IMG/VR virus record: IMGVR_UViG_3300037264_000516 | Coordinates: 1-46,938 of that record | Source of the DNA: a virus | Direction: 5' to 3' (one strand) | DNA length: 46,938 nt | Shown: positions 6,273 through 35,700 of the stretch, piece after piece | Position numbering within the stretch: position 1 is the stretch's first letter | Layout of the letters: every line of letters starts with the position of its first letter | Notes under the pieces: generated by a model | Told to the model about the DNA's origin: nothing | Seen by the model: the letters and a program-made list of their open reading frames with translations, nothing else | Database searches by the model: none | Program-made: the position numbers and the translations under genes

Positions 6273-6288
6273 ATTTTATCTCCTGGGT

Positions 6289-6300: not shown

Positions 6301-6322
6301 GACCGTGCTTTTCAAAAGCTAA

Positions 6323-6454: not shown

Positions 6455-6747
6455 GTCGTGCCTCCGAGAGCCGCGAACGCGGCCATGCCGTCGGGGCTCG
6501 CGGCCCACTCATCAGAATCGGCCTTGGTCCCGTCGAACTCCCCGTCAATGGCGCGCTGGGCTATCGCTTCGAGATCGGCCGCGCGCGCATCCCGGACGAG
6601 CTGGCCGATGTTGTCGCCGACATCGCTGCGGTAGTCGTCGTAGCGGCCGTCCAGGGCGGCGTTGATCATATCCGGCGGGGCCTTGGCCACCACCAGGGCG
6701 TCTACGAGTTTTGCTTGGGCCTCTCCGATGGCTCTCTTTGCGATCAT
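6451..6747 (-). CDS. Helical acidic protein of unknown function
   Basis: 98 residues, largely helical and acidic, with Asp/Tyr-rich and Ala-rich segments and no cysteine. The ATG at 6747 overlaps the NinG-like stop (ATGA) and its stop overlaps the next start. It lies in the replication/recombination run between the NinG-like gene and a tiny membrane protein. The family is not recognised. Confidence 0.55.
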   Translation of the reverse strand: MIAKRAIGEAQAKLVDALVVAKAPPDMINAALDGRYDDYRSDVGDNIGQLVRDARAADLEAIAQRAIDGEFDGTKADSDEWAASPDGMAAFAALGGTT

Positions 6748-7265: not shown

Positions 7266-7414
7266 AGCCTGGTGATCTCGCCGGTCGCGGTGTCCACGCG
7301 GTAGAGCGGGTATTTCGCGGCCTCTGCGGCGCAGGAGCAGGGGGCTTCCCGGCCGTCGCCGTCCAGGCCGTGCCCAGGACAGCCGGGAGTGGCCACCGGG
7401 CAGGGAGAACTCAC
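7262..7414 (-). CDS. Small Cys-containing protein
   Basis: 50 residues. GTG at 7414 overlaps the upstream stop (GTGA) and its own stop overlaps the NinG-like start (ATGA). Four cysteines occur in the first 33 residues (CPVATPGC, CSC), and the end (YPLYRVDTATGEI) looks like a beta hairpin. It is likely a small metal-binding protein, but the family is unknown. Confidence 0.5.
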   Translation of the reverse strand: MSSPCPVATPGCPGHGLDGDGREAPCSCAAEAAKYPLYRVDTATGEITRL

Positions 7415-7899
7415 CCTTTCCACGAGCTGTACCTGTCAGAAACCGCCGCCTTCTTGCGGAGCGCGGCCGTCGGCACCAGCTCGCCGTCCGGCTTCTTGCC
7501 GCTCTCGTGGATGGCGATGTCCTGGCGATGCACAGTTGACACTTCAAACATAACCTGTCCTGGAGCGTGTACTTGGGCACTGGTCAGCTTCTCTTCCGCC
7601 ACCCTGTCTTTCTCGGCGACGCTGCACCAGATCGGGTAGATCGAGCGCTCGAAGTCCTTCATTCGCTGATCCTGCACGGCCGCTTCTACGCCGCCCCAGT
7701 AGCCGTCAGGGCGCATAATCCTCATCGCCTGAGAAATCAGGTCGTTGCCCTCCCACGTCGCCATCCCCCGGCGCACGAACAGCGGAATGTTCGATGGCCC
7801 TGAGCGCGTCCCCAACAATCTCTCGTGATGGTGTAGTCCGTCGAGTTGATCTCTGTCCATCCAGACGATCTGCGCCCACCGCGCCGTTTTCGTGTCCAT
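7411..7899 (-). CDS. Unknown protein overlapping the replication gene by 194 bp
   Basis: 162 residues. The ATG at 7899 has a strong GAGGGGAG ribosome site directly upstream, yet it lies well inside the 3' end of the O-like gene in another frame. The N-terminus is rich in Trp and His (WAQIVWMDRDQLDGLHHHE) and the rest looks soluble. I see no known motif. A later in-frame ATG at 7764 would shorten the overlap but has a poor ribosome site. Confidence 0.55.
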   Translation of the reverse strand: MDTKTARWAQIVWMDRDQLDGLHHHERLLGTRSGPSNIPLFVRRGMATWEGNDLISQAMRIMRPDGYWGGVEAAVQDQRMKDFERSIYPIWCSVAEKDRVAEEKLTSAQVHAPGQVMFEVSTVHRQDIAIHESGKKPDGELVPTAALRKKAAVSDRYSSWKG

Positions 7900-8641
7900 T
7901 CTCCCCTCTCGGTGTCATCCCCATGCCGTCGAATGCGTGACGGCTTATCGTCTCCAGCGTCCACTCCAGGCCCTTCTCGTTGAGGTCTTCGGCCCGCTTG
8001 AAAATATAGACGGCGCACTTGTCCACGTTGCCGTCAAAGCAGGCCAAGAGATTCTGAGCTGCCTTAGCTGCCCGCCCGAAGTTGGACTTGTCCCACGCCT
8101 TGTTTCCTTTCGCCACGCCCTTTGAATGCTTGTAGGCCCGGACGACAGCCTGGATCGGGGTTTCGGGCTTAACTTTCGCCGCGACAGGCGGCGCAGCCGC
8201 TATATCTTCCTCTTCCCCAGTCCCCAGTCCCTCTTCCCCCTTTATAACGAAACTAGCCGTTAAATTTAATTTCTTGTCGTGTAAATTACACGACTTGGAA
8301 TTTAATTTAATTTTTACCGTCGGGGGAGCGGGGATTTTGGAAGAAAACTCGTTCGGATGGGGGCGCTGGTGGCGCTTAAACCCGATGACCTCCAAAAACC
8401 GCTTCCCGGAGACCTCGTAACGGACTATGAAGCGCGGGGCAAGCTCGGAAAGCAGGGCATCGACATCAACATCATCCCAGGGAAACGTCACCAGCTTTAG
8501 GCGCTTTGGGCTGTCTTCCAGGCGACCGTCCCGGTCGCAGTGGGTGGGTAGCATGGCGAACAAATACCGGGCCGCGATGCTCACTTCCGCGAGACCTTCA
8601 TCCGTACCGATCTCGGGCTTGATATAGCGGATGCGGGCCAT
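7706..8641 (-). CDS. O-like replication initiator / replisome organiser
   Basis: 311 residues. The N-terminal ~100 residues carry the signature of phage replication proteins with a winged-helix domain: RYIKPEIGTDEGLAEVSI, then THCDRDGRLEDSPKRLKL and GFKRHQ. This family binds the phage origin and recruits the host helicase. A low-complexity acidic/Ala-Pro linker (about residues 130-165) precedes a helical C-terminal part that may contact the helicase. The ATG at 8641 has GGAG seven bases upstream and overlaps a possible leader-peptide stop (TGATG). It is transcribed from the promoter at 8778. The last ~64 codons overlap the next gene. Confidence 0.8.
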   Translation of the reverse strand: MARIRYIKPEIGTDEGLAEVSIAARYLFAMLPTHCDRDGRLEDSPKRLKLVTFPWDDVDVDALLSELAPRFIVRYEVSGKRFLEVIGFKRHQRPHPNEFSSKIPAPPTVKIKLNSKSCNLHDKKLNLTASFVIKGEEGLGTGEEEDIAAAPPVAAKVKPETPIQAVVRAYKHSKGVAKGNKAWDKSNFGRAAKAAQNLLACFDGNVDKCAVYIFKRAEDLNEKGLEWTLETISRHAFDGMGMTPRGENGHENGAVGADRLDGQRSTRRTTPSREIVGDALRAIEHSAVRAPGDGDVGGQRPDFSGDEDYAP

Positions 8642-11861: not shown

Positions 11862-12220
11862 AAATATCTCCTGGACATCCTGAAATCACGTCGGAACTCG
11901 TTCGAGTAGTCGGCCAGGTTGAGCTTCGCCAGGTAGCCAATCCAGCGCGCCACAAATTCCTCCTTGTCGCCCTGTTTCTCGACCCCGCCGATCATGTGAA
12001 GAAAGACGTGCGTCATCTCGTGGAAGAACGTGTCAGCCAGTTCTCGCTTGCTCTGCCGGGAATAAATCCAGACCTTGCAGCCTGTCGTCTTGTTGTGGCG
12101 CGGGCCGTAATACTCCGTCAGGCCGAAGATCGTACCCTTCGCGTAGGTGATCTTTCGAGCCGAGTCCTTCACGCGCCGAGAACGCCCGCCGAGATTAACG
12201 ACGATACCGAAGGACTTCAC
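11858..12220 (-). CDS. SprT-like zinc metalloprotein
   Basis: 120 residues. The sequence FFHEMTHVFLH has a full HExxH zinc site (HEMTH, residues 67-71) in a helix, preceded by a beta-rich N-terminal half. The size and motif fit small SprT/ImmA-type metallopeptidases found in phages. The substrate is unknown. The GTG at 12220 overlaps the DUF5131 stop (GTGA), so the two genes are coupled. No membrane or secretion signal is seen, so it should act in the cytoplasm. Confidence 0.65.
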   Translation of the reverse strand: MKSFGIVVNLGGRSRRVKDSARKITYAKGTIFGLTEYYGPRHNKTTGCKVWIYSRQSKRELADTFFHEMTHVFLHMIGGVEKQGDKEEFVARWIGYLAKLNLADYSNEFRRDFRMSRRYL

Positions 12221-13005
12221 GCGCGCCTCTCGAACTGCTCGGCAGGAATCGTGGCGGCGCTTCGCGGAAACTCCCTGATCTGAAGGTCGGCTGGGAAGTC
12301 CTCCATCTGGTCTTTCTTGTCCCGGAATCCGCCGAGTTGCTTCATAAAGAACGCGATGTGATCACGGCGACACTGGTCACGGACCGAGCGCGCCCATTCT
12401 GGGTTCATCGGGCGGGCATTGACGCCGCTCTCGCCGCCGCAGATCACCCAGTCGATGTAGGCCGGTGAGAGACCGAGATCGAGCGGCCCGAGAGCTGGTT
12501 CATAGCTGATCCCGCGCACCGTCGCGGCCACCTTCCAGAGATGCCCTATGCGCTTCTCCGCCTGCTCCTGGTTCTCGACCGTCGCCATCGCCCAAGCGTT
12601 GTCCGGCCAGCGCCGGGTCCACGATTCAGGAGCAAGACGCAACATATTCTCCGGGCGCTTGGTCAGCAACAGCCATGTCAGCGCTGGCGTCATGCCGATG
12701 AGTTTGAATAGGCGCTCGCGGTGGGTGTCCAGATCGCGCCGATCTTCGAACACGTCAGCCATGCTCGCGCAGAAGACGCGGAACGGCTTCCCGCTCGTGA
12801 GGGCAGACTTGTTCCATTTCAGGGGCTCGTTCCAGTGCTTGTCTCCGAAGAATCGGCGCTCAGCCATCGGACCCCATACCTTCAAGCCGAGGCGCTTGCT
12901 GAACGTCTCTGCGTAGCAGCTCTCGCAGCCGGGGCTCACTTTCACGCAGCCCCACCACGGATTAAATGTCGCGTCCGTCCAGGCGATCTTCGATTCTTGC
13001 CCCAC
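12217..13005 (-). CDS. DUF5131 (Gp37/Gp68 family) phage protein
   Basis: 262 residues. The family hallmark is present at the N-terminus: IAWTDATFNPWWGCVKVSPG followed by CESCYAE, with cysteines at 20, 27 and 30. Later blocks also match DUF5131 (PF07505): WLLLTKRPENM, ATVENQEQAEKRI, PALGPLDL and DWVICGGESG. The biochemical role is unproven; the cysteine cluster suggests a metal or Fe-S centre. GTG at 13005 is chosen because it begins just before the conserved motif and has GGAGG eight bases upstream. Confidence 0.88.
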   Translation of the reverse strand: MGQESKIAWTDATFNPWWGCVKVSPGCESCYAETFSKRLGLKVWGPMAERRFFGDKHWNEPLKWNKSALTSGKPFRVFCASMADVFEDRRDLDTHRERLFKLIGMTPALTWLLLTKRPENMLRLAPESWTRRWPDNAWAMATVENQEQAEKRIGHLWKVAATVRGISYEPALGPLDLGLSPAYIDWVICGGESGVNARPMNPEWARSVRDQCRRDHIAFFMKQLGGFRDKKDQMEDFPADLQIREFPRSAATIPAEQFERRA

Positions 13006-13044
13006 TATGCTTTCCTCCGTCGTCTCTGCCGATCTCGATGTCAG

Positions 13045-13092
13045 GTGGACCTCGCATCCACTACGCCTACCATGTGGGACTCGCACCCACAT
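13045..13092 (-). other. Two adjacent hairpins with near-identical loops
   Basis: On the minus strand a 7-bp stem with loop TGCGAGT (13072-13092) is followed 10 bases later by a 5-bp stem with loop TGCGAGG (13045-13061). Both resemble tRNA T-arms, but no cloverleaf can be built around them. They overlap the end of a small ORF and precede the ribosome site of the DUF5131 gene. Confidence 0.4.
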
Positions 13093-13655: not shown

Positions 13656-14795
13656 CTAGTCTTCCTCCCCGAAGTCGAAATTGCGCTTCTTGGGCTCCAG
13701 ATAGATCGAGGTCGGATCAGGCTGCGCGAACCGCTCGATCTTGTTCTTGAACATCGGCTTCTTCACGGCGTACTTCGCCTTGATATCATCGGGCAGCTCG
13801 TAGCGCGTGGTTTCCGAGCCCTTGCGCGTGATGACGAAGTTCCCCGACGTGAACACGCCGTCCTTCACGTCCTCGAACAGAGCCTTGATGCCCTTGTCGA
13901 TCTTCTCGACCTCGCGCCAGCGGTCAACGATCTGGTCGCGGCGCTCCAGCATCTCGGCCAGCATCTCGTTCCCTTCGATCTTCTGAGAGGGCACGGCCTT
14001 AATGTCCGGGATGCAGACGTGCTGGAATGCGCACCTCCCGCACATCGACGTGTCATACGGGATGCGATCCGGGAGCGTCTTGGCCGCGACGTTCATGTTG
14101 ACGCGAGTTGCTACGGCGAGCAGCCGGTCGATCTCTTTCTGGTCGCGCTCCAGGATCACGAACTTCCACCGGCCGCGCCCGTCGGTGAGCGCGAAGATCA
14201 GCACCGGATCGCCGCCAGCAGCCATATACATCTGCCCCTGGCGAAGATACTTCCGGTAGAAGAGATTGCGCGCCAGGTCCTCGACACCAGCGACTCCTGG
14301 GCGGATCGCGTCGAAGCCGTGCTGGTTCATTAACTTCATTTCGCACAGAATCCGCTTGCCCTCGAACTTGAACTTCGTGTCGAGGTAGCCGTGGATGCCG
14401 TACTTCTCGGAGAGTTCGCGCGCCGGTGCGTTGGCTTCCATTGACGCGCCGCCTTCGACCAGCTCGAATGAAGGCGACGCCCTGCGGCCGATGTCCGAGA
14501 GCTGCGCTTTGAATGAAAGTTCCTCTTCTCGACCGGCCTCGAATAGAGCTTCGAGTTCCCAGGTGTGGAGCTTTTTATCCTGCCAGTTCAAAAACTCATA
14601 CGTCATCTGCCGTTCGCAATCCGTGAATTGCGAAGCCCAAATGCTGGCGCGCGGCTTCGCCTTGATGTTGGATCGGAACTTCTTCTCGCGCGTGGTCTCG
14701 ATGGTTGAGATCAGGTTCATGGCGAGTGCGACATCCGCCGACACGGGCGGAGCCTTGACGACAGGCTCCGCCCCCTCGACCGCTTGTTCGCTCAT
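13656..14795 (-). CDS. Cas4/RecB-like exonuclease with Fe-S cluster cysteines
   Basis: 379 residues. It has the PD-(D/E)xK core: Asp139 in GIHGYLDTKF and CEMK at 151-154 (Glu152, Lys154), plus the RQGQMY motif near 188. One cysteine before the core (Cys60, TDCERQMTYEF) and three after it (252, 255 and 261) reproduce the four-Cys iron-sulphur arrangement of Cas4 and AddB nucleases. The gene start overlaps the annealing-like gene stop (ATGA). It likely acts as the 5'-end-resecting partner of that protein in phage recombination, as in lambda Exo/Beta. Confidence 0.8.
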   Translation of the reverse strand: MSEQAVEGAEPVVKAPPVSADVALAMNLISTIETTREKKFRSNIKAKPRASIWASQFTDCERQMTYEFLNWQDKKLHTWELEALFEAGREEELSFKAQLSDIGRRASPSFELVEGGASMEANAPARELSEKYGIHGYLDTKFKFEGKRILCEMKLMNQHGFDAIRPGVAGVEDLARNLFYRKYLRQGQMYMAAGGDPVLIFALTDGRGRWKFVILERDQKEIDRLLAVATRVNMNVAAKTLPDRIPYDTSMCGRCAFQHVCIPDIKAVPSQKIEGNEMLAEMLERRDQIVDRWREVEKIDKGIKALFEDVKDGVFTSGNFVITRKGSETTRYELPDDIKAKYAVKKPMFKNKIERFAQPDPTSIYLEPKKRNFDFGEED

Positions 14796-17114: not shown

Positions 17115-17846
17115 TCACAGGCCAGCCAGTGATATCGCGTTCGACCACGAGCCGAAGCGTCCATAATACGTCGTGTACTGCGGATACTCGCCGGTCGCTT
17201 TCTTGAAGTCGGCGGCGCGCGGAACGCGGCCATTCTCCTTCGCCCACTTGCGGAGAAGCGCCATTAGGTCTGCCTCGGACACCATCTGATGTTCCTGCGC
17301 CGTCATCGGTCGGTCTCCGATGCTCTCGCGGAATTTATTCAAGGTTCCAGATCGCCGCTCGATTGCCGACAGCAGAGCCGGATCGTGCTTCTTTAATTCC
17401 TGCGTCGTCGGTTGGTGCCCGACTTCCGCCTTCACGAACTCGTATCGCGTCTTCATCTGGAGATCACAGAGGCCGTAGCGGTTCTTGGATGCCTCAGTCG
17501 CGTTACCGTTCTGGCGCTTCTTCTTCGATACCGCCCGACGGGAGCGGCGCTTTATTTTTTTCCAGCCCTCCATCTTGTTCTGCTCGGTCAACTGATTCCG
17601 GCGCTGCTCAGAGAGCCGCTTCCCGCACAGCGGCATATTCAGATTCAGGCCGAACTTTATTTTGTGAGCGGAGGTCGTCGTCTTATGGATCGCGCGCAGG
17701 TGCGGGCCGAGGTAGTGGAACCACTTGCCGCATTCGTGACAGCGAATCGTGTCGTTCGTCTCGTCGTATTCGACGACGCCGGAGTAGCCGAAGTCGGTCT
17801 TCGTTTTGACGAACGGACCTTGCGCGGGGAACATTGGTCTTATCAT
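17115..17846 (-). CDS. MucR-like zinc finger protein with HNH-associated repeats
   Basis: 243 residues. The N-terminal part has a C2H2 finger like Ros/MucR regulators (IRCHECGKWFHYLGPHLRAIH) followed by AHKIKFGLN. A basic patch follows (KKIKRRSRRAVSKKKRQ), then two C-terminal repeats ending in FGSWSNAISLAGL and a related earlier copy; this is the homing endonuclease-associated repeat (HNH_repeat) that binds DNA. No HNH catalytic motif is visible, so it may be a DNA-binding regulator built from homing parts. ATG at 17846 follows the previous stop by 5 bp. Confidence 0.75.
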   Translation of the reverse strand: MIRPMFPAQGPFVKTKTDFGYSGVVEYDETNDTIRCHECGKWFHYLGPHLRAIHKTTTSAHKIKFGLNLNMPLCGKRLSEQRRNQLTEQNKMEGWKKIKRRSRRAVSKKKRQNGNATEASKNRYGLCDLQMKTRYEFVKAEVGHQPTTQELKKHDPALLSAIERRSGTLNKFRESIGDRPMTAQEHQMVSEADLMALLRKWAKENGRVPRAADFKKATGEYPQYTTYYGRFGSWSNAISLAGL

Positions 17847-18377: not shown

Positions 18378-18860
18378 TCATTTGAACGCATCGTCCAGCC
18401 ACGACTCGATCTTGTCGTACTTCTCGCCGCCATCAATCTCCGCGCCGCACCGAACTTTCCCGCCCTCGCGGATCATCGGCCACATGGCGGTATGCTTGCC
18501 GCCATCGAAGGCAACGACCAGGGCCGTCACGATCTCGATGCGATCAGGGTCCAGCGACGGCGGAATCAGGCCAACAAGCGGAGAAGACACTGGCGCTTTC
18601 ACCATCCACGCCTCGGCCACCAAGACGGCCCCGGCGAAGAGCCCCTGTGATTTCATCGACCTGATCACCTCGCAGATCGCGGCCTGCTCCACCGCGAGCG
18701 GGATGGACTTGTCTGATTTATACGGGATGTGAGCCACTTCTCCGTCTGTCCTGTGGAGGAAGATCACCCCGTGAACGCAGCCATCGTTCTTCAGGCAGTG
18801 GTCGATGTAGCCTTTGGTGAACGCCACGATCTCCGACGACGGCATGGCTTTTATTTGCAC
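18378..18860 (-). CDS. Unknown soluble protein in the early operon
   Basis: 160 residues from GTG 18860, chosen because AGGAGG lies four bases upstream; ATG at 18845 is too far from it. Beta strands (GVIFLHRTDGEVAHI, GAVLVAEAWMV, IVTALVVAFDG) alternate with helices, compatible with a mixed alpha/beta enzyme or binding domain. I see no catalytic motif. It follows the His-rich signal-peptide gene with a short overlap. Confidence 0.55.
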   Translation of the reverse strand: MQIKAMPSSEIVAFTKGYIDHCLKNDGCVHGVIFLHRTDGEVAHIPYKSDKSIPLAVEQAAICEVIRSMKSQGLFAGAVLVAEAWMVKAPVSSPLVGLIPPSLDPDRIEIVTALVVAFDGGKHTAMWPMIREGGKVRCGAEIDGGEKYDKIESWLDDAFK

Positions 18861-19054
18861 GGGACCTCCTGCGGCCTGCGCGCGCGGACTGTGGCCCCGA
18901 CGGCCCCCACCGCAACGCCTATGGCGAACCATAGGACGTGGTGAGCGGCCGTGAAGAGCTGGAACTCATGGCCATCGAGTTCGACCTCGTGATGGCCATG
19001 GGCGCGGGCAGCGGTCGCGGCGACGACGAGAGCGACGGTGATGATCGTTTTCAT
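18851..19054 (-). CDS. Small His-rich exported membrane protein
   Basis: 67 residues. A clear signal peptide or anchor (MKTIITVALVVAATAARA) is followed by HGHHEVELDGHEFQLF, a transmembrane helix (VLWFAIGVAVGAVGATV) and a basic tail. Five His residues in 14 positions suggest metal binding in the periplasm. ATG at 19054 has GGAGG upstream; the stop of the 216-residue gene lies one base away. It is in the second operator-controlled operon. Confidence 0.6.
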   Translation of the reverse strand: MKTIITVALVVAATAARAHGHHEVELDGHEFQLFTAAHHVLWFAIGVAVGAVGATVRARRPQEVPCK

Positions 19055-19055
19055 G

Positions 19056-19706
19056 TTAGGCCACCTCCGAGGGGGTAAGCGCCGGACCGCGACGCGGCGA
19101 CAAAGCGCCGGTCTCGATCTCGACATCGAGAGTGCTGATCTTGCGCTTCAGCTCCACGCGGTCGAGCTTCTGCGCGCGGACGCCAGCGACAAGCTCCTTG
19201 ATGCGGGTCTGCGTCTCGGCCGACAGCACCGGGCATGAGGCCAGCGTCTCCAGCGAGCGGAGGCCCTCTTCGTCGGCTTCCTTGGAGCGGCCGAGCGACA
19301 CGGCCCCGAGCTGGTTCTTGATGCGCGTGGCCCACTCGCCGAGTTCAGCGTCGCCGAGTCCTCCAGGCGAAGCCAGCTCGAACTCCGTAACGCGAACGTC
19401 GATGTCTGAGCGGTAGCCGAGGCCGCTCAGGAACGCGCGGGCTGATCCAGCCTTCGGCACGACGTAGAGGCCGTCGATGGGCGTCGCCAGGAAGCGCTTC
19501 CTGAACTCGGTGTAGATGCGCTTGGCTTCGCGGTCCTTCTCGGCGACGATCACGGCTTCCGCTTCGGAGCGGTAGTGCGTCCCGAGTCCGCGCACGATCT
19601 TCCCGTCAGCCGTCTTGAACCCGCGCCCGGCATTCGTGCCGAGGTCCTGCTGATCGTTGTGCGCGAGTCCTCGGTCGTAACTGATCGTCAGCTTGGCTAT
19701 GAGCAT
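19056..19706 (-). CDS. Unknown 216-residue protein, first gene behind operator promoter
   Basis: 216 residues. The N-terminus (LIAKLTISYDRGLAHNDQQD) is beta-like. A mixed central region follows, and residues about 145-200 form a long charged helix (RIKELVAGVRAQKLDRVELK). Conserved-looking pieces such as RGFKTADGKIVRGLGTHY and GLYVVPKAGSARAFLSGLGY do not match a family I know. AGGAG precedes the ATG at 19706. It directly follows the AAA+ module and shares its regulatory palindrome, so a functional link is likely. Confidence 0.55.
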   Translation of the reverse strand: MLIAKLTISYDRGLAHNDQQDLGTNAGRGFKTADGKIVRGLGTHYRSEAEAVIVAEKDREAKRIYTEFRKRFLATPIDGLYVVPKAGSARAFLSGLGYRSDIDVRVTEFELASPGGLGDAELGEWATRIKNQLGAVSLGRSKEADEEGLRSLETLASCPVLSAETQTRIKELVAGVRAQKLDRVELKRKISTLDVEIETGALSPRRGPALTPSEVA

Positions 19707-19750
19707 TTGATTTCTCCTGCGGTCAGGGTCTCTGCCCTCGACAGCGCTAT

Positions 19751-19779
19751 ATTGTGAGTCATGGGAACGTTCCTGTCAA
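19751..19779 (-). promoter_or_regulatory. Promoter with embedded palindromic operator
   Basis: TTGACA (19774-19779), 17-bp spacer, CACAAT (19751-19756). The palindrome GGAACGTTCC at 19764-19773 starts directly after the -35 box. It overlaps the end of the DUF2997-like gene and drives the 216-residue gene. Confidence 0.75.
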
Positions 19780-19997
19780 GTGTTATTTTCTTGATGCGTG
19801 TGCTGTCCGACGCCTTCGCCGTGTTCGTGGTGGTGATCGCCGATATGTCGCTCGCGTACTTTGCCTAGAGCCTTGGAGAGCGCGTCGGTCAGAGCCGCTG
19901 CCTTGGCTGCATCGACCTTCTGATTCCGGCCGTGCGGGATGCGGATGATCGCTTGGCCGAAGTCGTCGAACTCCACTTCGATATTTATTTGGGCCAT
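19776..19997 (-). CDS. DUF2997-like small protein with His-rich tail
   Basis: 73 residues. The first half (AQINIEVEFDDFGQAIIRIP, then LTDALSKALGKVRERH) resembles DUF2997, a family found beside Ycf46-type ATPases. The tail (GDHHHEHGEGVGQHTHQ) is rich in His and may bind metal. AAGGAG precedes the ATG at 19997. It is the last gene of the ATPase operon. The match to DUF2997 is by eye and of medium strength. Confidence 0.5.
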   Translation of the reverse strand: MAQINIEVEFDDFGQAIIRIPHGRNQKVDAAKAAALTDALSKALGKVRERHIGDHHHEHGEGVGQHTHQENNT

Positions 19998-20007
19998 GTG
20001 ATTCTCC

Positions 20008-20238
20008 TTAACCGATGTTGACCTGGATCGTGAGCTTGTCGCCGACGCGCCGGATGACGGCGCTCGGGTTCAGCCTGCGCATGATGGCCTGGGTCTTGAT
20101 GATCCCGGCCTCTTTCTTCACGCGCGCCGCGTCAGCCGCAGAGAGCAGGCCCTTCTCGGGGAGTCCAAGAAGAGCGCGCGCCTTGCGGTTGTGTTCGTTG
20201 TCCTCGACTTCGACACCGACTACCGTGTAGCAAGCCAT
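20008..20238 (-). CDS. Small partner gene of the Ycf46-like ATPase, unknown
   Basis: 76 residues; the ATG at 20238 has AAGGAGG upstream, overlapping the ATPase stop. It begins with a beta strand (ACYTVVGVEVEDNEH), has a helical centre (LSAADAARVKKEAGIIKTQ) and ends in a beta hairpin (AVIRRVGDKLTIQVNIG). I do not recognise the family. Its place between the ATPase and the DUF2997-like gene suggests a shared complex. Confidence 0.55.
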   Translation of the reverse strand: MACYTVVGVEVEDNEHNRKARALLGLPEKGLLSAADAARVKKEAGIIKTQAIMRRLNPSAVIRRVGDKLTIQVNIG

Positions 20239-20252
20239 GTTCTCATGCCTCC

Positions 20253-21737
20253 TTAAACAGCCATCGTGCGGCGCGGCCGGATTTCCGGACCGCTCCCGGT
20301 TTCGACCGCCGTCACCGACGCGGACTTCGCGCGGCCGGTTGCCCAAGCCCGCAGCTCCTTGATCTGGTCGGCCATGGTCTTCGACAGCGGCACCGTGCCC
20401 CTGACGGCCGCAAGGATGTCCTCGGTCTTGATCTCGCGCTTCTGCGAGTAGGACGTGAACAGGCCCTCGATAACACCCTGCTCCAGCTCGGCACCCGTGA
20501 AGCCCTCGCTGGCATCGGCGATTTCCTGCGCCTTGATCTTGGCTTCGGCCCGGCCGTGGCGCGCGAGGTGAATCTTGACGATCTCCAGGCGCTCTTCCCT
20601 GGTCGGCAGATCGACGAAGAAAATCTCGTCGAAGCGCCCCTTGCGAAGAAGCTCCGGCGGCAGGCCGGAGATGCGGTTTGCCGTGGCCACCACGAACACG
20701 GGCGAGGTCTTCTCCTGGAGCCACGTCAGGAGGGTGCCGAATACGCGCTGGGAGGTGCCGCCGTCGAGCCCGCCGCCCCCACCCAGCCCCTTCTCGATCT
20801 CGTCGATCCAGAGAATGCAGGGGGCGCAGGCTTCCGCCGCCTCGATTGCCTGGCGCGTCTGAGCCTCGGACTGGCCCACCAGGGAGCCGAACAGCTTCCC
20901 GGCGTCCAGACGCAGCGTGGGAAGGCCCCAGCCACGTCCTACGGTCTTCACGGTCAGGCTCTTGCCGCCGCCAGGGACGCCGAGCAGGAGCAGCCCCTTG
21001 GGCTCAGGAAGGCCGTATTGCTTGGCCTTCTCGCTCCCGAACGCATCCTTGCGGATGCTCAGCCAGCTCTTCAGGTTGCCGAGCCCGCCGACTTCCGGGC
21101 TGTCCTCGGTGTTGACGAACGTCAGAGCCCCGCCAAGGCGCTCAGCCACGCGCGCCGCCTTCTCCTTGCGCAGCCACGCCGGGTCGAGCTTCTGGTTCTT
21201 CTCGATGTAGCACCGGGCGAACAGCCGTGCCGCCTCGTGCCGGGCCATCCCGGATACCGCAGAGGCGATGGCGTACTTGACCTCGCCGTTGCCCTCCAGC
21301 TTCACATCATGGCTCTCGATGAAGTCCTGAAGCTCCTGGAGCAGTTCCTTGATGTCGGGGAGCTTGTTGACGACGTACTCGATGTCTGAGCGCAGGACGC
21401 CGGGGACCTCGACGCCGGGGACCTCGATCAGGATGAGCCGGGAGTACGCGCCATTCTCGCGGCGCTGGAGCGCCACTTCCCTAATGAGCCGGATTGCAAC
21501 CGGGTTGCCGCCGAACACGCGCAGGAAATCGCTGATGATCAGCGTCCCTTGGCCTGTCTTCTGGTTCTCCAACTTCTGGATCGCATCCGGATCGGCCGCG
21601 CTGATCGAGACTACGGGGGCGAACATCTTCGCGGCGTTCTTGGCCGCGTCGAGCGCGAGCTGCTCATCAGACTCTTCGACAAGAACGACGAGCGACCCGG
21701 CGCGCAAACGATTGGTGAGAGTCTTGGCAAGGGACAT
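20253..21737 (-). CDS. Ycf46-like AAA+ ATPase
   Basis: 494 residues. Walker A GVPGGGKS (253-260), Walker [11 protein letters not shown] (307-316), sensor VFVVATANR (347-355) and an arginine finger region [14 protein letters not shown] (365-378). The [20 protein letters not shown] block and the C-terminal [17 protein letters not shown] block are those of cyanobacterial/plastid Ycf46 ATPases, and the ~240-residue N-terminal domain also fits. Ycf46 proteins are AAA+ machines of poorly known function. ATG at 21737 has AGGAGG upstream. A 15-bp tandem repeat (VPGVE twice) lies at residues about 107-114. Confidence 0.85.
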
Positions 21738-21739
21738 GA

Positions 21740-21922
21740 TTATTTCGCCTCCTGTGTCTGGTGTTGGTCGTGCGTGAGATTGTCCGGCCAGAGCGGTAGG
21801 CGCTTGCGGCATTCCGCGCACCAGTTCAGGTCGTTTGGTTTGGATATCGGGCGAGCGCAGAACTTCGGCTCAGCACCAGTTTCGGAAGAATCACGGCGGC
21901 ACAGCACGAACTCGTGTCCCAT
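21740..21922 (-). CDS. Small Cys-containing protein opening the ATPase operon
   Basis: 60 residues with FVLCRRD, FCARP and WCAECRKRLPLWPD; the four cysteines suggest a zinc site. The ATG at 21922 has GAGAGG upstream. Its last codons contain the ribosome site of the ATPase, whose ATG follows two bases after the stop, so the two are coupled. It is the first gene after the operator promoter. The role is unknown. Confidence 0.6.
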   Translation of the reverse strand: MGHEFVLCRRDSSETGAEPKFCARPISKPNDLNWCAECRKRLPLWPDNLTHDQHQTQEAK

Positions 21923-21969
21923 CGGCTACCTCTCAGGGGGCCAGGCTCTATGTCCTCGGCCGCAGAGAG

Positions 21970-21998
21970 AGTATAGGTGATGGGAAGGTTCCTGTCAA
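21970..21998 (-). promoter_or_regulatory. Strong promoter with embedded palindromic operator
   Basis: TTGACA (21993-21998), 17-bp spacer, TATACT (21970-21975). The near-palindrome GGAACCTTCC follows the -35 box directly. It drives the 60-residue gene and the Ycf46-like ATPase. The surrounding 21923-22060 gap holds nothing else I can support. Confidence 0.8.
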
Positions 21999-22060: not shown

Positions 22061-22819
22061 TCAGGACCTCATCACGAGTCCCTTCTTGGTCATCAGGCCG
22101 ATGAACCAGGCCCCACAGTCCTTGCAGGTGAACCGGATGTTCCTTCCAGACTGACTGTAGAAGGTCCCCCGAGTGCAGAGGTTCTTTGACCGACAGGTTG
22201 GGCAAGCCCTGGCCTGATCATCAGCGGTCAGGTTTGGATGCCTCTTGATCCAAGGTCTAAGGTGTTCATACAGACCACGCAGGAGCGGGCTCACGTCATG
22301 CAGGTTGTACCGCTTCATCATCTGCCAAGCCTCGGGCCTGCCCGCCATGCACTCCTTCCACATTCGGAAACCGGGATGCGGCATTTTCTTGCCAATCCCA
22401 AGCTCTTCGCACACGTCCCCGAGCCTGTTGCTGTTGAGATCGAAGTTTCGGCGCAGAACCTTCAGGGTGTCAATGGAGCGGTGGGGCGGGGGCCTGACGA
22501 TCTTGTTAAGGAAGATGTCTGAGTTCACTCGCTTGTCGTCGAACTCATCGACATTGTGGCCGACGACTATATCCGCCTTGTCCATCACGTCACGAGTGAA
22601 CTTCTTGATCAGCGCGACATTCGTTCTCTTGCGGCGGTCATAACCGGGCAGGTCTGGAAGAGCTAGGACGTGCCGCTCCCTTTGGGGATACCACTGCCAC
22701 GAGATCGAGCAGACCATCCGGCGCTCGATAACCTCGATGACCTTCTGCTCCCACGTCCCCCAGGTCCAGCCCTCATTCGGAAACGACTCGACATCGTAGA
22801 GCAGAAGTGAGATCGGCAT
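22061..22819 (-). CDS. DEDD-type 3'-5' exonuclease with zinc ribbon
   Basis: 252 residues. An RNase H-like exonuclease fold is indicated by LLYDVES (Asp9, Glu11), VGHNVDEFDDKRVN (about residue 90) and YNLHD (about 165), a DEDDy set. The C-terminal 50 residues add a zinc ribbon (CPTCRSKNLC and CKDCGAW). Similar phage proteins act as 3'-5' exonucleases, perhaps in replication fidelity or host DNA degradation. The ATG at 22819 has GGGGAG upstream. It separates the lysis genes from the ATPase operon. Confidence 0.78.
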   Translation of the reverse strand: MPISLLLYDVESFPNEGWTWGTWEQKVIEVIERRMVCSISWQWYPQRERHVLALPDLPGYDRRKRTNVALIKKFTRDVMDKADIVVGHNVDEFDDKRVNSDIFLNKIVRPPPHRSIDTLKVLRRNFDLNSNRLGDVCEELGIGKKMPHPGFRMWKECMAGRPEAWQMMKRYNLHDVSPLLRGLYEHLRPWIKRHPNLTADDQARACPTCRSKNLCTRGTFYSQSGRNIRFTCKDCGAWFIGLMTKKGLVMRS

Positions 22820-26726: not shown

Positions 26727-29700
26727 TTACTTCTTCGTTCGGCGCGAGAGCGCGTCGCGCCATGTCAGTTCGCCGTTGTCCTCGATCCAGTCGAGCATAT
26801 TAAATATGAGGTTGTTGAACGACACCGGGATTCCGACCATGTACGACCCGGCCCGCGCCCCTTCTTCCAGGTATTTCCTGTCGAGAGGCTTGTCACCGAA
26901 CGGAAGATCAATGCCGACAGCTCCGGCCGTTTTGCTGGCCGCGCGAGCCCCGCCCCTGGCGACCGTAGTGAGAATCGACTCCATGGCCGATTCCATCGGC
27001 GAGAAGCGGTAATTCGTCTGCTTGCCGATGGCCTTGTCCACGACGAACCCGGCGATGTCGCGGCCGATCCAGACGTAGCCGAAAGGCTGGGAGAGCGTCC
27101 TGGCGATCATGCGCTTTCTGCGCTCCTTCTCGTCGTCGCGCTTGGCATTGCGGAAGAACTCGCGCCAGAAGTTCTCATTGAGCGCTTGAAGAACCCACAT
27201 GAACAGGGCTGCTTTCGCCAGCATGGCTACGGCCGCGCCGGTGTTCCCGGCGTTATATTCCAGACCGGCGAGCTTGCCCGAGAGCCACATCCGATTGAAC
27301 ATCATCGAGGACCATGTGAAGAACATAGTGAAGATTTTCTTGTACTCGCTACCGCGTTGAGCGCCGACCTGATCCAGAACGGAGCCAGAGCCGAGAGTCC
27401 GCGTAACAACTTCATCGGCGATATCGCGCGCGGTCTCTTCGCCGTGCTTGTCCAGGGCATTCTTGTAGACCTCAGACCATAGCGGGTAGGCCACGGCCTC
27501 GTCGGCGAGAATCTGGACTATGAACCCGTACTGCAAGAGAGCTGAATCCTTCCCGGCCCAGTGCTTCGACATATCCATCATGTCCCGGTCCTTCGTAGAG
27601 GCGCGCTTGCGCATCCGCTCGGACTTGGTATTCACGAACGCGACCACGGGGGCGGGGTCCATCACGAAGTCTTTCATCGCCGCGAGCATCCTCGCCGGGC
27701 CGAGTTCGTCGATGCTGTTGATGACGTTGCCGCTCAGGTCGATCAAGAACGTGAACGGCCGGATCGCCAGCAAGGAGAAAGTGGCGCGGAATCGGAACCA
27801 GCGCGCGGCCTTTTCCCAAAAGCCCATGAACTCGCCCTGATCGGAAGCGACAGCCTTCAGGGCCTCGTTGAAAGTGAGTAGGCCCTTTGGCCCAAGGGCT
27901 CCCTCGATTGCGGTCTTTACGTCCGGCTGATTCAAGAACCTGGCCACGTCGATCACGGCTTTGCGGAACTCCAGATCGTGGACGACATTATCCAAATGGT
28001 TGAACAGAGTCGTCATCGTCAGCCGCACCGGCCGCTTCACATTCGCAACGCGCTCCTGCGTGTGCCCGCTGTCCGTATGCGCAGAGGACGCGCTGTACTG
28101 CTTGTAGAGTGCGTTCTTCTGCTCGGCGTTCTTGTAGGCGTCCGAGCTGCGCTCGAAATCGTAGACGATGGGGAAGTAGCCGCCCTTGAATTTCCCGAAG
28201 GTTGTCTCGATCTCCGCAGGTTCTACGGACTTCGGCTGGACGCCGCGCACAGCCATCTCCTGCGCCACGATGTCGGGCCAGAAAGTCTGGAGATAATTGA
28301 ACGTGTCCTGGACGAAGTTCATCTCCTTTTCGGTCAGCGCGTCGATGATCGGCTTGATCTGAACATCGTCCACTCCGAAGCCCGCGCGGATGCGGTCGCG
28401 GTTGCCTTCGTTGCCCCAGTTCAAAGCGACGCCGAGAACCTGCTCGCGCGTGAGGTAGCGGCCGATGGATTCGAAATAGATGCGCTGGTTCGGATAGTCG
28501 GCCAGCTCTGCGGGAGTGAAGGCGCGCTCCATGATCGCGTTCAGCTCTTTGGTCATCTTCTCGAAGCGGCGGAACTTGCTGTCCTCGGCCCGCTTCAGGA
28601 TGCGGTAGGTGTAGCGCTTGGCCGGGCCGTCAGCCTCGCCGCCATCCAGGTAGTGCGCCAGCGTGAGCAAGTTGACCATCGACGGGATCACGGCGTCGGG
28701 GATGCTCAGCGTCGCCTCGGCATTGTCCTTCCAGGCGGAGTCGTACTGCGATCCGATCATCAGCCTGCTTTCGTAGGGACGGCCGATCTTGTCTTCGACG
28801 GAGGCGCGGAACTGGCGCGCGGCCTCTTTGATGTCAACCTTGATGAAGCCGGACAGAAAGCGATTGAAGGTCTTGCCGACCTCGGCGAGAGCCTTGACCG
28901 TCGCGGCGATGTCCCGCAGCTCGCCCATCGTCAGCTCTGAATACTTCTTGCCCTGCGCGCGGGTGACTGATGTCGGGACGATCATCGCGTAGTAGTTTTC
29001 GTTGACGCGCTGGACGAGCTGCTCCAGGGTCTCAACGGCCCATTTGCCGTTCTCATCGCGCACGAGGCCGGTCGCGTTTGCCGTCTCGGTCGCCGGAGAG
29101 CCGTCCTTCTCCATTTTCTCTGCGATGGCCTCCATGGTCCCGGACTCTTCGGCGCGCGGCGTCATCAGGCCGAAGCGGCCGAGCAGGCCGTCAATCTGGC
29201 GGATGAATCCGTAGGGCATCCCGAGCAGGTCCCGGCCGCGCTTCTCGAACTTGGCCAGGTTCCGGCTCATGCGCTCGACTTCTTTCTTGTTGCGCAGGGC
29301 CTCGGCCGCGAGGGCATGGTTGACGAGCTGCTGGCGCTTGAACTTGGCCGCTTCTGCGAATTTCTTCGCCAGCGTGGCCTTGGCTGCTTTGACCGCCGCC
29401 TGGCGCTCAGCGGTGACGTAGGGACGCCAGGACGTGGCCTGGTTGATCGGGAGGGCCGATAGCGTGGCCCGAGCCTCTTCCTTGACCGCCTGGGCCGTGA
29501 CCTTGGCCTCAGATCGGCGTCGGCGGGCAACCTCGACCCGGACCTCGGCCCCCTGGATCATATCCGCGAGAGCTTCGCGCTCCAGGGCGATCAGTTCCAG
29601 GGAAGAGGTCTCGTCCGCGTAGATCGCCTCGCGGGCCATCTCGCGCATCAGTTCACGATCCACGGTGCCGAACTTCGCCATCTGCGCTTCGACGATATCA

Positions 29701-32700
29701 GATACCGCCGTTTCGAGCGGCTTGGCGCTGGCGAGCTTGCGCGCGAGATCGGTCCCATCGGCAAAGCCATTCAGCTCGGCGGCTTCTTCGAATGCGGCCA
29801 CCTTCTCAGGCTCCAGAGTTCCGCCCAAGAACTTCGCTGCCGCGTTCTTGACCGGCTTCGCTGTGAATTGAATCTCCCTATCGCCGCCGCCAGCCTGGAT
29901 TCCGATAGCGCGTCGTAGGAAGTCCTGAGCCTCGTAGAGGGGTTCTCGGCCGAGCGCGTTTGTCCAGACGCCAGTCAGGCGCTCGCGCTCCCTGGCCATG
30001 AAGTTCTTGTCTTCGGCCTTGAAGTCGGACAGCACCTCTCGCAGGAGAATATCCTCGGCGGTCTCGCGCGCCTTGATCTGGAGGTCCTTGATCTTCGCGG
30101 CCACGACCGGATCGAGCCCTTCGATCTCGACGGGCAAGTAGCCGCTCTCGCGCTGCGCCTCTGCGATCTCTTCTTCCGTGGCGAGCATCCGGTCGAAGAT
30201 CGCCTTCATCTCAGGGGAGACCTGAAGATTCGGATTGTCCATGCCCGCGCGCTTGTACGCCGCCGTCATCCACTTGCGCTGGCGCGTGAAGACGCCCTTC
30301 AGGCGCGGCACCGGAGCCGCCGCAGCGCCGCCGAAGAAATTGGCTTCCCAGGCATCGGCCCATTTCTCCTGCTGCTCGTCGGTGAGCTTGGTCTGATCGG
30401 TCTTGACGCCAAGTTCCTTGGCGATCTTCTCCCACTCGTTTAGGTAGGATTCAGTCGCCTGGCCGCTCTTGACGTACAGGAACATATTCCGGAGCCAAGC
30501 GTGGCTGTACTCGTGCAGTGCGGTCGTCTCGTCGGCGCTCGCCAGGAGCGCGATCAAGTTCTGGCCAGCATCGAAGAAACCGCGCGGCGGCTGGCCTGGT
30601 TCGGCCTGGTATAGCGGGAAGCCTTCGGTCAGCGCGGCGCGGCGGAGTTCTGGCGTGATGGAGATGGAATGAACTCCGGTCCCGGAGTCGATCTGTTTGT
30701 TGAGCGCCTCAATCGCCTCGGATTCCGTGGCATATTCCGAGTTTTTGTAGCCGTCTGCTCCGAATATCGCCCACCGCCCGCTCTCCGCCAGCTTCCCGAC
30801 ACGCAAGCCATCGCCGCTTCGATCAACAACGATGCGCGTTTTCCCGACCTGCGCTCCCCACTTCTTGCCGAACTTGTTACCGAAGCTCACGAGCATCTTG
30901 TCGTAGAACTGCTTCATCCCGCCGCCGCCGAACTTGGCGTCTACGCCGGTAATTGCGAGATCGCCTTCTTCGGCTTGGCGGAAAAATTCGTCATGGGCGA
31001 GGGGACGAGCGACGCTCTCACTTTCCGCCGTTGTTCTATACTGGCGTCCATCCGGAGCCGTGACGACCCAAACGATGTCGCCATTCTCTTTTACCCCGGA
31101 ATCGACGGCCGTGAGTTCGTCAACTGACGGCTGCGGACCCGCTGGCGGCGCTGCCAGAAGTTTCTCGGCAAGATCGCGTCCGACATACTGCGCCAGATTA
31201 TCCGGCGTGACGCCGCTCTGCTCCACTCTGGCGCGACCGCCACGGTACGCGCGCAGAGTCTTTTTCGCAGGGCTGTAAAAGAAACCATCCACGTCCATCG
31301 CCTGGCCCCAGCGGTCGGCCTGCTGCTGGCCGGTCGTCCATGCGATCTTATCGTAGCCATGCTCGGCGGCGAAGCGGATCATGCGCTTCATCACGAACTC
31401 GTGCCAGTTCTTTTTGAAGGGGAAGTCGGGAACTCTCCCCTCTGTCTTGCTCGGACGGACCGGGCGCTGTCCGGCGACAGTCACATTCTCGGCCTCTGCC
31501 TCGCGGAACGTTCTCAGAATATCACGGTAGCTCTCGTCGATTTCGGAGAGGAATCGTCTGCGCGCGTCTGCCCCGCCGTCGTCACCCTCGCTCGGTATTT
31601 TGTCGAGCTGGGATTTATCGACTCTGCTTAAACGTCCGACGGCGGCGGAATAAGCCTTCAGTTCAGCTTCGTAGGCCACACCCTCCGCCTTCCCAGCGGC
31701 TTCTTTGCGCGGCTTCCAGGCTTCGTTCGCTTTCTCGAACTCGGCGAACTGGCGGTTATATTCGGCCTCCGCCTCTGGCGTTTTGTAGCCGCCCTCGCGC
31801 CCGGCCTGGTGGAGGTCGCTCTGAATTTCTTCGATGAAAAGAACGGTCTTGCCGTCGGCGTCAACGCGGTCGTCGAAGCGCGTGTGCGCGATGGTGTTCT
31901 CGGGAGCCTTGCCGCCGAAATGCGCCGACGGGATAAAGTACGCCTGGCCTTCGGCGAAGCGGTTGGCCGGGATCGAGAAGAGCATCTCGCGGTAGTTCGT
32001 CTTCGGGCCTTCGAGCGTGTAGCTGGCGTGGAAGGTTTTATCCTGGCGCTGAACCCTCACTCCTTCCAGGTCGCGGCGACCTTCACGGACATCCTCGACG
32101 ATCTCTTCTGTCGCGGCTCGTCTTGACGAGGTAGAATCCCAACTATCCCAAAGACCTTCCTGAACGTTTTCGAGTTCACGATCAGAGGCCGCTTCCGCAG
32201 CGCTATTGGCTTCGTCCACGTCAGTGAAGAACGTTTCCGTCGGGACTCGTTTTGATTGGCGCGCGTCCCATCTGGTGCCGGAGTAGTCTTCGCCGCCGAG
32301 CGTCAGGCGATAGAATACGCCGCGCTCGATCCGCACATCTTCGTCATTTATCAGTTTTTCGACTTCATCGCGCGCGGCGTCCTCGTCTGCGGCATCGACT
32401 GTCATGGAGTTGGCATTGCTCAGATGAACGATCCACTTCCCCTCTTTGTCAGCGGCCTCGACATCATCAACCGAGATATCGCCCCAGTCCTCTTGGCGCT
32501 CGTCCGCCTCGACCTTCCACTGATCGGGGTTGTCGGAAATGTATACGTCCATCTCGTCTCTGGCGATCTCGTCGGCGCGTTCTTGGATTTCTTCTTCGAG
32601 CTGTTCCGCGATCTCTTCGTCCGTCATGTCCGTGATCTGCGGCTCGGCGGTGACGGCCTGCACCTGCTCGCCGATTGGCGGGCCGAACAATTTCTCCTGA

Positions 32701-35700
32701 ACCTGGAGTTGGTTCCAGCCGAGAAATTCCAGGAGCGCGTCCTTGGCGATCTTGGTCTTGCCCTCTATGAACTTGTCAATCTCAGACCAGCGGCGCTCGT
32801 CTTCCTTCGCGTCGCGCAGAAGAGCATTCACCTGTTCGGCGGTCGCGGTCGGCCCCATCTTCTGAGTGATATCCAGGGCGAGCTTCGAGTAAAACGTCGG
32901 CACAATCGGCCCCGGCACGACGAGTTCGCCTTGCTGGAGTCGTCCTTCCGGCCGGACATCGGGCACCATTCCCTCTGTCATCACCCAGTCCGGCAGAAGA
33001 CCCGCCTTTTGATCGGCGTATTTCGTGTTCGCCGGATCGGATTGATTGGTCTCGCCGAACGGGCCGTAGTTCACCCACGAGTTCTGGCCGCGCGTCTCGC
33101 TGGTCATCGCTCGCGCCGCGATGTCAGAGTACATCCTCATGTGCGACTGCCAGGCGTTCTCTTCGCCGCGCGGCCCGAAGCCGTTGCCTTCTTTGGCATG
33201 GCCGAAGAAGTCGTGGACCACGCGGAAGATGTCGTTGGCGCGTAGGCGCATCCCGCTCGGCAGATATTCGTCGGTGTATGCGAAGAGAGGGTGATCGTTG
33301 AAGCGGGCATCCGGACCGAAGCCTTCCTCAGTCGAGAAGAACCACAGATGCCCGCTGCGCACGTCCTTGATCATGGCGGCAGAACCGGAAGCGTAGGGGC
33401 TGCTGGCACCCTTTGGAATCGGCTCGATTGTCAGACCCATCTGCTTCATCACCTGGTATTGCGCCAGCGTCTCGGTGATGAGCGCGCGGTACGCGGCCTG
33501 GACCAGGGGATCGTTCGGCGCGTGGATCATGGCGTCGAACGCACCGGCGATCATTTTGCCGCGCTGGGGATCGACCTTGGCGTATTCCGCCTGCTGGCGA
33601 ACAGGCAGGCCGTTGAATTGCTCGTAGAGATACGAGGCGAGTCTGATCTCTGGAGAAGGACCTGGGAAGTCCTTAGTCGGGGCTCCGGTTAATGGAGCGT
33701 TGGCCTGGGCTCGTAGCGGGTCTTCGCCCGCGCCTTGTCGAGCCGCGCCTCCTTCTCGTCCTCCGACTCCTGGGCCTTCGGGGGGACCGCCTTGGACGAC
33801 GGGAGCGCCGCCTTCGCCTTCTGGCCCTTTTTCTTCTTTGACATCGCCTGATAGTTTAGGGTACAAAGGCTGCTTTGTCAAGGCGTCGAGTTCGTCGATC
33901 TTCGCCAGGACGGTGCCTTTAAGCGTCTGGTCTCCGGTCGCCAGCCAGTAGCGCCGCGCGGCGCGGATCAGCGAATCGCGCCAGCGCCCGGCCTGCTTCT
34001 TGTTGAACTTAGTGGCGTCGATCTTATCGACACGTTCGAGCTGGGATATGGCCTCTCGTTCGACGCGCTTGACGGCACCGTACCAGTAGTCCCGCCCACG
34101 CATGAAGTCCATTTCGGTGAAGGTCGGCACCTCGACCATCATCGCCTGGCGCAGTTCGGGATGGAAACTCGCCCAGCCGCGCGCCTCCGTGACCGCTTCC
34201 TGGCCGACGTAGGTCTTGACACCTTCAGGTTGGGGGAGTACACTGTCGATATATGGCGACTGATGCCTCCTTTGGAGTTGCTCTGCGGAAAAAGCGCGAC
34301 GAGTTTTTTGCGTCTCCGGAAGCTGAAAGCCTGACTGACGAGCAATTTCACCAACGCTGGGACCAGATGGCGGCTGAGCTTCACCAGCAGATGGTCCCGT
34401 TCCGGCCTCTGATCCGACAATCCTGATGTCTTTTAGCGCCGCGTAAGCCTGCTCGACCGACACGCCGCGCTTCTTCGCGTCCACGACAGCGATTGCCGCC
34501 TCGATCCGCGAAGTGTCTTCGATGACCTGAGCCCAGTTCGCTTCGCCGATTCCGGCCGGGCGACCGCGCGCGAGTAGCTTCGTCTTGATATCCAGAGCGA
34601 CGGCATCGTGCCCGACCTGCATCGCCGCATCGGCTTCGACGAGCGGCTTGGCCTCGGCGACGGCTTCTGCGACTTCCGCCTGAGCTTCCTCGACGCGCTC
34701 CTTGGTTTCGTTGACGGAGAGCTGGTCCTCGCTGAACTTGATGTCGTCGGCCAGCTTCTCGTAGTGGCCATCTTCGATCAGGGAATTGAAGCGCGCGAGC
34801 GGGATCGGGAAAGACGCGCCGCGATCTCTGGCGTCGGCGTAAGCATCCGCAGCTCCAAGGTCGGCCATCTCTTTTAGGGGATCGAGCCCGACCGACTGGA
34901 AGTATTTCTCGACGGCCTCGGCGCTGATATGCACATTCTCGACTGGCCCGTTCTTTGTGACCTGAGTCACGAGCTTGGCGTGGGCGGCTGGCAGGCGCGC
35001 GTACAGTTTGGATTCCTTGGTTTGCTCGCCCATCGCCAGGAACATATCCTTGGCTTTCTCGGCAGACTGCTTTTGCTGGAGCCGGTTCTGGAGAGCGCCG
35101 CCAAAGACAGCGCCCCCGGCCGTGAGCGCCCCGCCGGAGACCGCGCCGACGAGCCCGGCATTGGCGGCGCGTTGGAAGATTCCATCAAGCGCCCTCGGAT
35201 TGACGCCGGTCATGTAATCGCTGAAATCCTGGGTGACGCTGGTCACATACTCTTCGTTCGCTTCTCCGACGATTGAGGTGAGCAAGGTCTTCGCCAAATC
35301 TTTGTAAATCTCGCGCGTGACCTTCTTCCCGAACGAGCGCGCTAGGCGACCTTCCCATTGCTTCAAAATCCCGTAGGTCCCGAGGGTCTCGAATCCAGAC
35401 TCGGCCGCGCCGTGGAGAATGGCGTTGAGCGTTGAAGAGGCCGCATCCGCACCGGCCTTGCGGCTGGCCGCACCAGTCTGCGCCGCCTCGATGACGCCAG
35501 CTCCGACGAGCGCCGGGATGCCGTACCCCGACAGCGTGGCCGCGACGATAGCGGCTTGCGTCGGAGAGTTGGCGACGAATTGAGCGGCGAGCCCGCGCGC
35601 GCCTTGCTTGTAGTCCCCGCGCTTGAATGCTTCGAGATTATCCGTCTGGATGTCGGCGTTCTGAGCGTTGATCTCCAGAGCTGCTTTTTCAAGCGCCATG

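Follow-up and report, generated by a model that had tools for sequence, protein, structure and literature searches.

A phage-borne cassette with a Ycf46-type AAA+ ATPase and altered small partner proteins

Introduction

What does a virus do with an AAA+ ATPase of the Ycf46 type, and what do the small genes beside it contribute? The question is raised by the IMG/VR virus record IMGVR_UViG_3300037264_000516, of which positions 1 to 46,938 were analyzed as one stretch, the window. Its minus strand encodes the ATPase P0001, followed by the small proteins P0002, P0003 and P0005. A first-pass annotation had described the ATPase as a member of a module with fixed small partners and had suspected a role in host takeover, defence or counter-defence. 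Ycf46, Ycf35 (DUF1257) and DUF2997 have long been listed as "hypothetical" genes in cyanobacteria, and the first two also occur in plastids. The title of Jiang et al. 2015, as cited in PMC12172450, links Ycf46 to the regulation of CO2 utilization.

Our findings identify the cassette as a new variant in which the small partners are altered. With a probability of roughly 0.62, we consider it the compact phage version of a Ycf46-type AAA+ remodelling machine. Loci and contigs of the comparative survey are cited by L numbers where they need to be told apart.

Family identity of the ATPase

P0001 (494 amino acids (aa); 20253..21737, minus strand) was assigned by profiles, motifs and a structure model. 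A profile built from seven cyanobacterial Ycf46 rows matches its residues 56-474 with 391 bits (E-value about 5e-117), whereas the NCBIfam models of FtsH and CDC48 reach 105 and 100 bits, respectively. The match thus extends into the family-specific N-terminal domain, and the gap of 391 versus 105 bits supports membership in the Ycf46 type. Pfam recognizes the generic AAA domain only (4.6e-28), and the best phage family is phrog_8638 (E-value 6.9e-119). The catalytic motifs are intact, comprising Walker A (GVPGGGKS, position 253), Walker B (ILWIDE, 308), sensor-1 (ATAN) and the arginine finger (RKGRFD, 365). Two other identities were rejected. As FtsH, P0001 scores 105 bits against a cut-off of 600, matches in the AAA part only and reveals no zinc protease domain; as IetA, it scores 62.5 bits against the equivalog cut-off of 510, again through the generic AAA domain. 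The defence libraries yielded matches to P0001 of this generic kind only (IetA, TRIP13). Judged by its sequence, P0001 is a true Ycf46-type protein and a new member of a widespread, little-characterized family. The first-pass assignment, which was to fall if no Ycf46 profile matched, is thereby confirmed together with its motifs.

In a tree of 153 sequences, P0001 groups with its homologue from viral locus L001, and the pair joins the phage loci L054 and L079 and a mixed bacterial and archaeal clade (support 98), while the cyanobacterial Ycf46 of Prochlorococcus and Nodosilinea stands apart in a clade of its own. Because FtsH, p97 or any other non-Ycf46 outgroup is absent, the tree places P0001 inside the Ycf46-type family and does not draw the outer border of that family. 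P0001 thus resembles Ycf46 of cyanobacteria and algal plastids by homology over residues 56-474, two-part architecture and motifs, but differs in its position outside the cyanobacterial clade and in being encoded beside small partners in a cassette of a phage, for which a role in CO2 utilization or photosynthesis is not to be expected. The phrog_8638 "AAA-ATPases" of Rhizobium phage L338C, Corndog-type mycobacteriophages, Pseudomonas phage SM1 and Rhodobacter phage RcMenchie share 33-47% identity with P0001. These phages carry recognizable DUF1257 and DUF2997 partners, with at least one extra gene between ATPase and DUF1257, whereas in the window orphan genes are directly adjacent to the ATPase.

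The older view, repeated in the first-pass annotation, that Ycf46 ATPases are known mostly from cyanobacteria, plastids and some bacteria is outdated. A scan of bacterial and archaeal genomes revealed at least 581 relatives of P0001 in many phyla, and 823 plasmid records gave tblastn matches, including some to AAA proteins that are more distant, for example a Haloarcula CDC48. By homology, relatives occur widely among bacteria, phages, and plasmids.

Domain architecture of P0001

P0001 is predicted to consist of a degenerate N-terminal AAA-like domain (about residues 1-205) and an intact C-terminal AAA+ domain (about residues 215-474). The N-terminal 214 residues, modelled with 60 sequences, adopt an alpha/beta core with a helical lid at a mean predicted local distance difference test (pLDDT) value of 90.5. 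A Foldseek search with this model retrieved AAA modules of FtsH, RuvBL, the clamp loader RFC and p97 (best E-value 3e-7, probability 1.00, template modelling (TM) score about 0.5). The region has no GxxGxGK P-loop; in its place, the family motif S/T-x-EE-x-R follows the first strand, and there is a degenerate hhhhxDF. The AAA+ fold match and the missing P-loop together suggest that P0001 is an AAA+ protein of two tiers, the first of them dead.

Processive unfoldases usually carry an aromatic residue at pore loop 1. This position is Leu in P0001 (GSLVG), and Leu or Ile occupies it in 46 of the 70 viral rows and in 51 of the 66 cellular rows from outside the cyanobacteria, with aromatic residues in the minority. 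The aliphatic residue in place of an aromatic one suggests that P0001 performs local unfolding or remodelling rather than ordinary processive threading of whole proteins.

Small partner proteins

P0002 (76 aa; 20008..20238, minus strand) and P0003 (73 aa; 19776..19997, minus strand) occupy the positions in which DUF1257 and DUF2997 are found in other phages, and the two differ in how well a relationship can be traced. Neither is recognized by a family model of the libraries scanned.

P0003, described before as DUF2997-like, does not match Pfam DUF2997 (PF11211) at the threshold of 24.1 bits. With a custom DUF2997 profile, it reaches 11.2 bits, the best value among 722 open reading frames (ORFs), and ranks first against its own shuffles. 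Its hhalign alignment to DUF2997 has the register expected and outscores all 150 column shuffles, and its gene is the second after the ATPase, as is DUF2997 in L054 and L079. The family Cys is found at one position in all 57 collected DUF2997 rows, in 56 of them within GxxC, but P0003 and its L001 homologue contain no Cys at all and accordingly no GxxC. P0003 instead has eight His, against a family median of one. We regard it as probably a remote, altered DUF2997 relative, Cys-less and His-tailed; the earlier label stands in this weakened sense, supported by custom profile and slot.

For P0002, a descent from DUF1257 is possible, at somewhat less than even odds. Pfam DUF1257/Ycf35 (PF06868) does not match at its threshold of 22.2 bits, and the 76 residues of P0002 include neither the length of DUF1257 (about 130 residues) nor its central YDIGF...DWWG block. 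In hhalign, the N-terminal match to DUF1257 exceeds 150 of 150 shuffles, but in the hidden Markov model (HMM) comparison it takes rank 233 of 4910 shuffles. The model of P0002 (pLDDT 76) shows a beta-alpha-alpha-beta-beta-beta order, for which no credible match was found in BFVD and PDB.

P0005 (216 aa; 19056..19706, minus strand) is an orphan without family match and the fourth conserved gene of the cassette. Inspection by eye and neighbouring DUF3150 genes had suggested DUF3150 (PF11348), but neither iterated HMM search nor hhalign detects a relationship. DUF3150 itself lies beside or near the phage ATPase at 12 loci (L003, L028, L044, L052, L053, L054, L057, L059, L060, L063, L078, and L079) and is a third partner family, one that the first-pass annotation does not name.

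A mobile four-gene cassette

In tblastn searches of phage records, no relatives of P0002, P0003 or P0005 were found, and scans of viral contigs with the same three proteins returned only the contigs of L001 and L002. Behind an ATPase 53-56% identical to P0001, both carry homologues of P0002 (52%), P0003 (51%), and P0005 (38%) in unchanged order, and in L001 the stop of P0003 and the start of P0005 have a single base in common. Of the ORFs of the window, only those of the cassette match the two loci and their fetched 5-kb flanks. The terminase and the tail protein of the window were not found in the L001 record, and six records of relatives of its tail protein, several of which are fragments, are without the ATPase. 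Since only the cassette is common to the window and these two loci, terminase and tail protein are absent from the L001 record, and tail-protein relatives are without the ATPase, we take P0001-P0002-P0003-P0005 as a mobile cassette. It rests on two independent lineages, because L001 and L002 hardly differ over the cassette and may represent a single virus.

Linkage of the ATPase with DUF1257 and DUF2997

Conserved linkage of the three genes in phages, which the first-pass annotation had proposed to survey, was assessed at 76 distinct viral and 80 cellular ATPase loci with a reach of 5 kb. DUF1257 was found near the ATPase at 25 of the viral and 36 of the cellular loci, DUF2997 at 22 and 35, respectively; as a control, the official Pfam models of both families each match in one of 14 control genomes. 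The linkage is real and seems under-described. In the literature collection searched, we found no paper on phage Ycf46-like modules or on DUF3150 with AAA in phages, and few papers name DUF1257 or DUF2997. Regarding the claim of fixed small partners, the DUF1257 and DUF2997 slots do recur across phages, but the sequences of P0002 and P0003 are orphan versions and not fixed.

The common phage order is ATPase-DUF1257-DUF2997 (L003, L018, L054, L064, L072, and L079), which includes L054 and L079, the nearest phage neighbours of the window in the tree. The same order with at least one inserted gene is found in Rhizobium phage L338C, Pseudomonas phage SM1, Agrobacterium phage JP1, and Rhodobacter phage RcMenchie. 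It also occurs on IncC plasmids and on a Paenarthrobacter plasmid. On the IncC multiresistance plasmid NZ_CP040068.1 (L170), the module spans 5905-8493; its 130-aa protein, annotated as hypothetical, matches DUF1257 at 1.6e-11, and DUF2997 is already annotated there. This conjugative element shares the gene order, but its ATPase is 32-33% identical to that of the window, and an extra 109-aa gene lies between ATPase and DUF1257.

Conversely, 29 viral contigs were found with DUF1257 (L174-L202). DUF2997 adjoins in 28 of them, while a Ycf46-type ATPase was present within the fetched stretch in four and not seen in 25. The pair DUF1257-DUF2997 is thus the tighter unit, because it is adjacent in 28 of 29 contigs and accompanied by the ATPase in only four. 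Phages that have the pair without the ATPase may supply partners to a Ycf46 of the host.

Other neighbourhoods were observed as well. In cyanobacteria, cluster g consists of DUF2997-ycf35-fed7 (PMC4284462). Sister cellular operons (L099, L115, and L145) hold DUF1257, DUF2997, a 4Fe-4S radical-SAM-like gene, the ATPase, and HEAT-repeat and Hsp70-like genes. Large-phage relatives (L007-L010, L012-L014, L016, and others) reveal a different fixed neighbourhood, in which a DnaC-like gene, a DnaB-like helicase gene and then a gene of roughly 210 aa come directly after the ATPase.

Gene layout and promoters

Six genes on the minus strand make up the locus, all of them open and each with a sequence resembling a ribosome binding site upstream. 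The first unit begins with P0004 (60 aa; 21740..21922), which has four Cys, no family match, and is possibly a small zinc-binding protein; its end is separated from the start of P0001 by 2 nt, and P0002 and P0003 follow. P0005 and P0006 (67 aa; 18851..19054) form the second unit. P0006 is His-rich with a signal-peptide-like N-terminus, and its Pfam match to DUF6732 (E-value 0.006) is below the cut-off. Scans of the six proteins with the family libraries revealed no IetS-type protease or other effector domain.

Each unit is preceded by a sigma-70-like promoter with an operator in its spacer. The first (21970..21998, minus strand) reads TTGACA-17-TATACT with operator GGAACCTTCC, the second (19751..19779, minus strand) TTGACA-17-CACAAT with operator GGAACGTTCC. 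Both spacers begin with GGAAC[G/C]TTCCCAT, and the shared 19-base promoter/operator element, TTGACAGGAAC[G/C]TTCCCAT, has exactly two copies in the window (21980-21998 and 19761-19779, both on the minus strand), where 0.01 copies are expected by chance with up to three mismatches. The two operator-bearing promoters are the best sigma-70-like sites of the region.

The two-unit layout described earlier (60, 494, 76, and 73 aa, then 216 and 67 aa) was recovered with the sizes as claimed, and the repeat of the operator ahead of the second unit is exact. The grouping needs one amendment, as P0005 belongs to the conserved cassette although it lies behind the second promoter. The Cys protein P0004 and the putatively exported His-rich protein P0006 are likewise present as described, but neither has a counterpart in the L001/L002 cassette, and both are by this comparison local additions.

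Other genes of the window

Directly upstream of the ATPase unit, 22061-22819 encodes a DnaQ-like 3'-5' exonuclease (phrog_403) with a zinc-ribbon-like stretch at its C-terminus. At 17115-17846, a zinc-finger region of the ROS/MUCR type is followed by HNH_repeat, a homing endonuclease-associated repeat; this unusual combination may hint at an alphaproteobacterial host. A Cas4-domain, CRISPR-associated-like exonuclease (phrog_1990, phrog_1706) is located at 13656-14795 and a DUF5131 (PF07505) protein of the phrog_2045 family at 12217-13092. The region 26727-36227 encodes a polyvalent protein of 3166 aa with an LPD22 domain at the N-terminus, probably an internal virion protein of a podovirus-like phage.

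Proposed function and alternative explanations

As a compact phage version of the Ycf46-type remodelling machine, the cassette could work as follows. By analogy with classic-clade AAA+ proteins, P0001 would assemble into a ring, probably hexameric, and ATP would be hydrolysed by its C-terminal tier only. P0002 and P0003, as adaptors or structural partners, may help the degenerate tier to bring in or place a client protein, which the ring would then remodel or dismantle; a nucleoprotein or replication complex is our guess for this client. Through two host-type promoters that share an operator, the ATPase unit and the P0005 unit would be expressed together, probably early. A more specific version, which we put forward as tentative and well short of even odds, is a streamlined mobile Ycf46/Ycf35/DUF2997 sub-type of phages. 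It would combine a reduced DUF1257 of 76 aa, a DUF2997 changed from Cys to His-rich (a metal or cofactor switch), and P0005 as an added subunit into a compact remodeller of a defined phage or host complex.

Several observations weigh against this picture. The TM score of about 0.5, accompanied by a large root-mean-square deviation, backs an AAA-like fold of the N-terminal region and not its fine detail. Homology of P0002 to DUF1257 is not reliable, given the HMM rank and the fold search. Finally, the radical-SAM, HEAT and Hsp70 genes of the sister cellular operons are missing from the window cassette, and for this reason the machines of phage and cell may not be alike.

Among the alternatives, an accessory of replication or recombination would use the ATPase to load, unload or dismantle a phage nucleoprotein complex, similar to clamp loaders or helicase loaders. 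DnaC-like and DnaB-like genes occur within 5 kb at 27 and 29 of the 76 viral loci, respectively, and come after the ATPase in large-phage relatives; in the window, the ATPase unit lies between the DnaQ-like exonuclease (phrog_403) upstream and the Cas4-like nuclease and a replication initiator downstream. The DnaC/DnaB neighbours are, however, mostly a property of particular viral clades and are found at none of the 80 cellular loci, and co-location as such is to be expected by chance among the middle genes of a phage, which leaves this explanation unlikely. A role of ring and small proteins in cofactor or metal-site maturation, inserting or repairing Fe-S or metal sites, might be suggested by the neighbourhood of DUF2997, Ycf35 and ferredoxin in cells. 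At 27 of the 80 cellular and 8 of the 76 viral loci, a radical-SAM/4Fe-4S single-cluster gene is found within 5 kb, cyanobacterial cluster g pairs DUF2997-ycf35 with fed7 (PMC4284462), and the sister operons add HEAT-repeat and Hsp70-like neighbours. The invariant Cys of DUF2997 (57 of 57 rows) and the eight His of P0003 point in the same direction. The cassette of the window is nevertheless without an Fe-S gene, and P0003 has lost the family Cys, so that we rate maturation as rather unlikely.

In favour of a defence function, the PADLOC IetA models match the AAA domain of P0001 with an E-value of 1.5e-17. P0001 and the IetAS anti-phage system share a generic classic-clade AAA domain only; 62.5 bits fall far below the cut-off of 510, and an IetS-type protease or another effector domain is absent from the six genes. 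The same ATPase type is, moreover, an ordinary chromosomal gene in cyanobacteria. A module for defence, anti-defence or superinfection exclusion would fit an accessory common to otherwise unrelated phages with related modules on conjugative IncC plasmids, but we consider it quite improbable, and neither host takeover nor defence or counter-defence, as first suspected, finds support. That the cassette is non-functional or decaying bacterial cargo could be read from the failure of standard family models to recognize the small partners. As catalytic motifs and frames are intact, L001/L002 keep the order of the four genes at 38-56% identity, and the two units are driven by matched promoters, this is hardly credible.

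In this survey, Ycf46, Ycf35/DUF1257 and DUF2997 emerge as one recurrent module that bacteria and archaea have in common with diverse phages and with IncC multiresistance plasmids. Because the phage and plasmid versions are small, probably dispensable and genetically tractable, the role of this AAA+ machine becomes directly testable, and the phage variant, an ATPase with proteins of 76, 73, and 216 aa, gives a minimal set suited to reconstitution.

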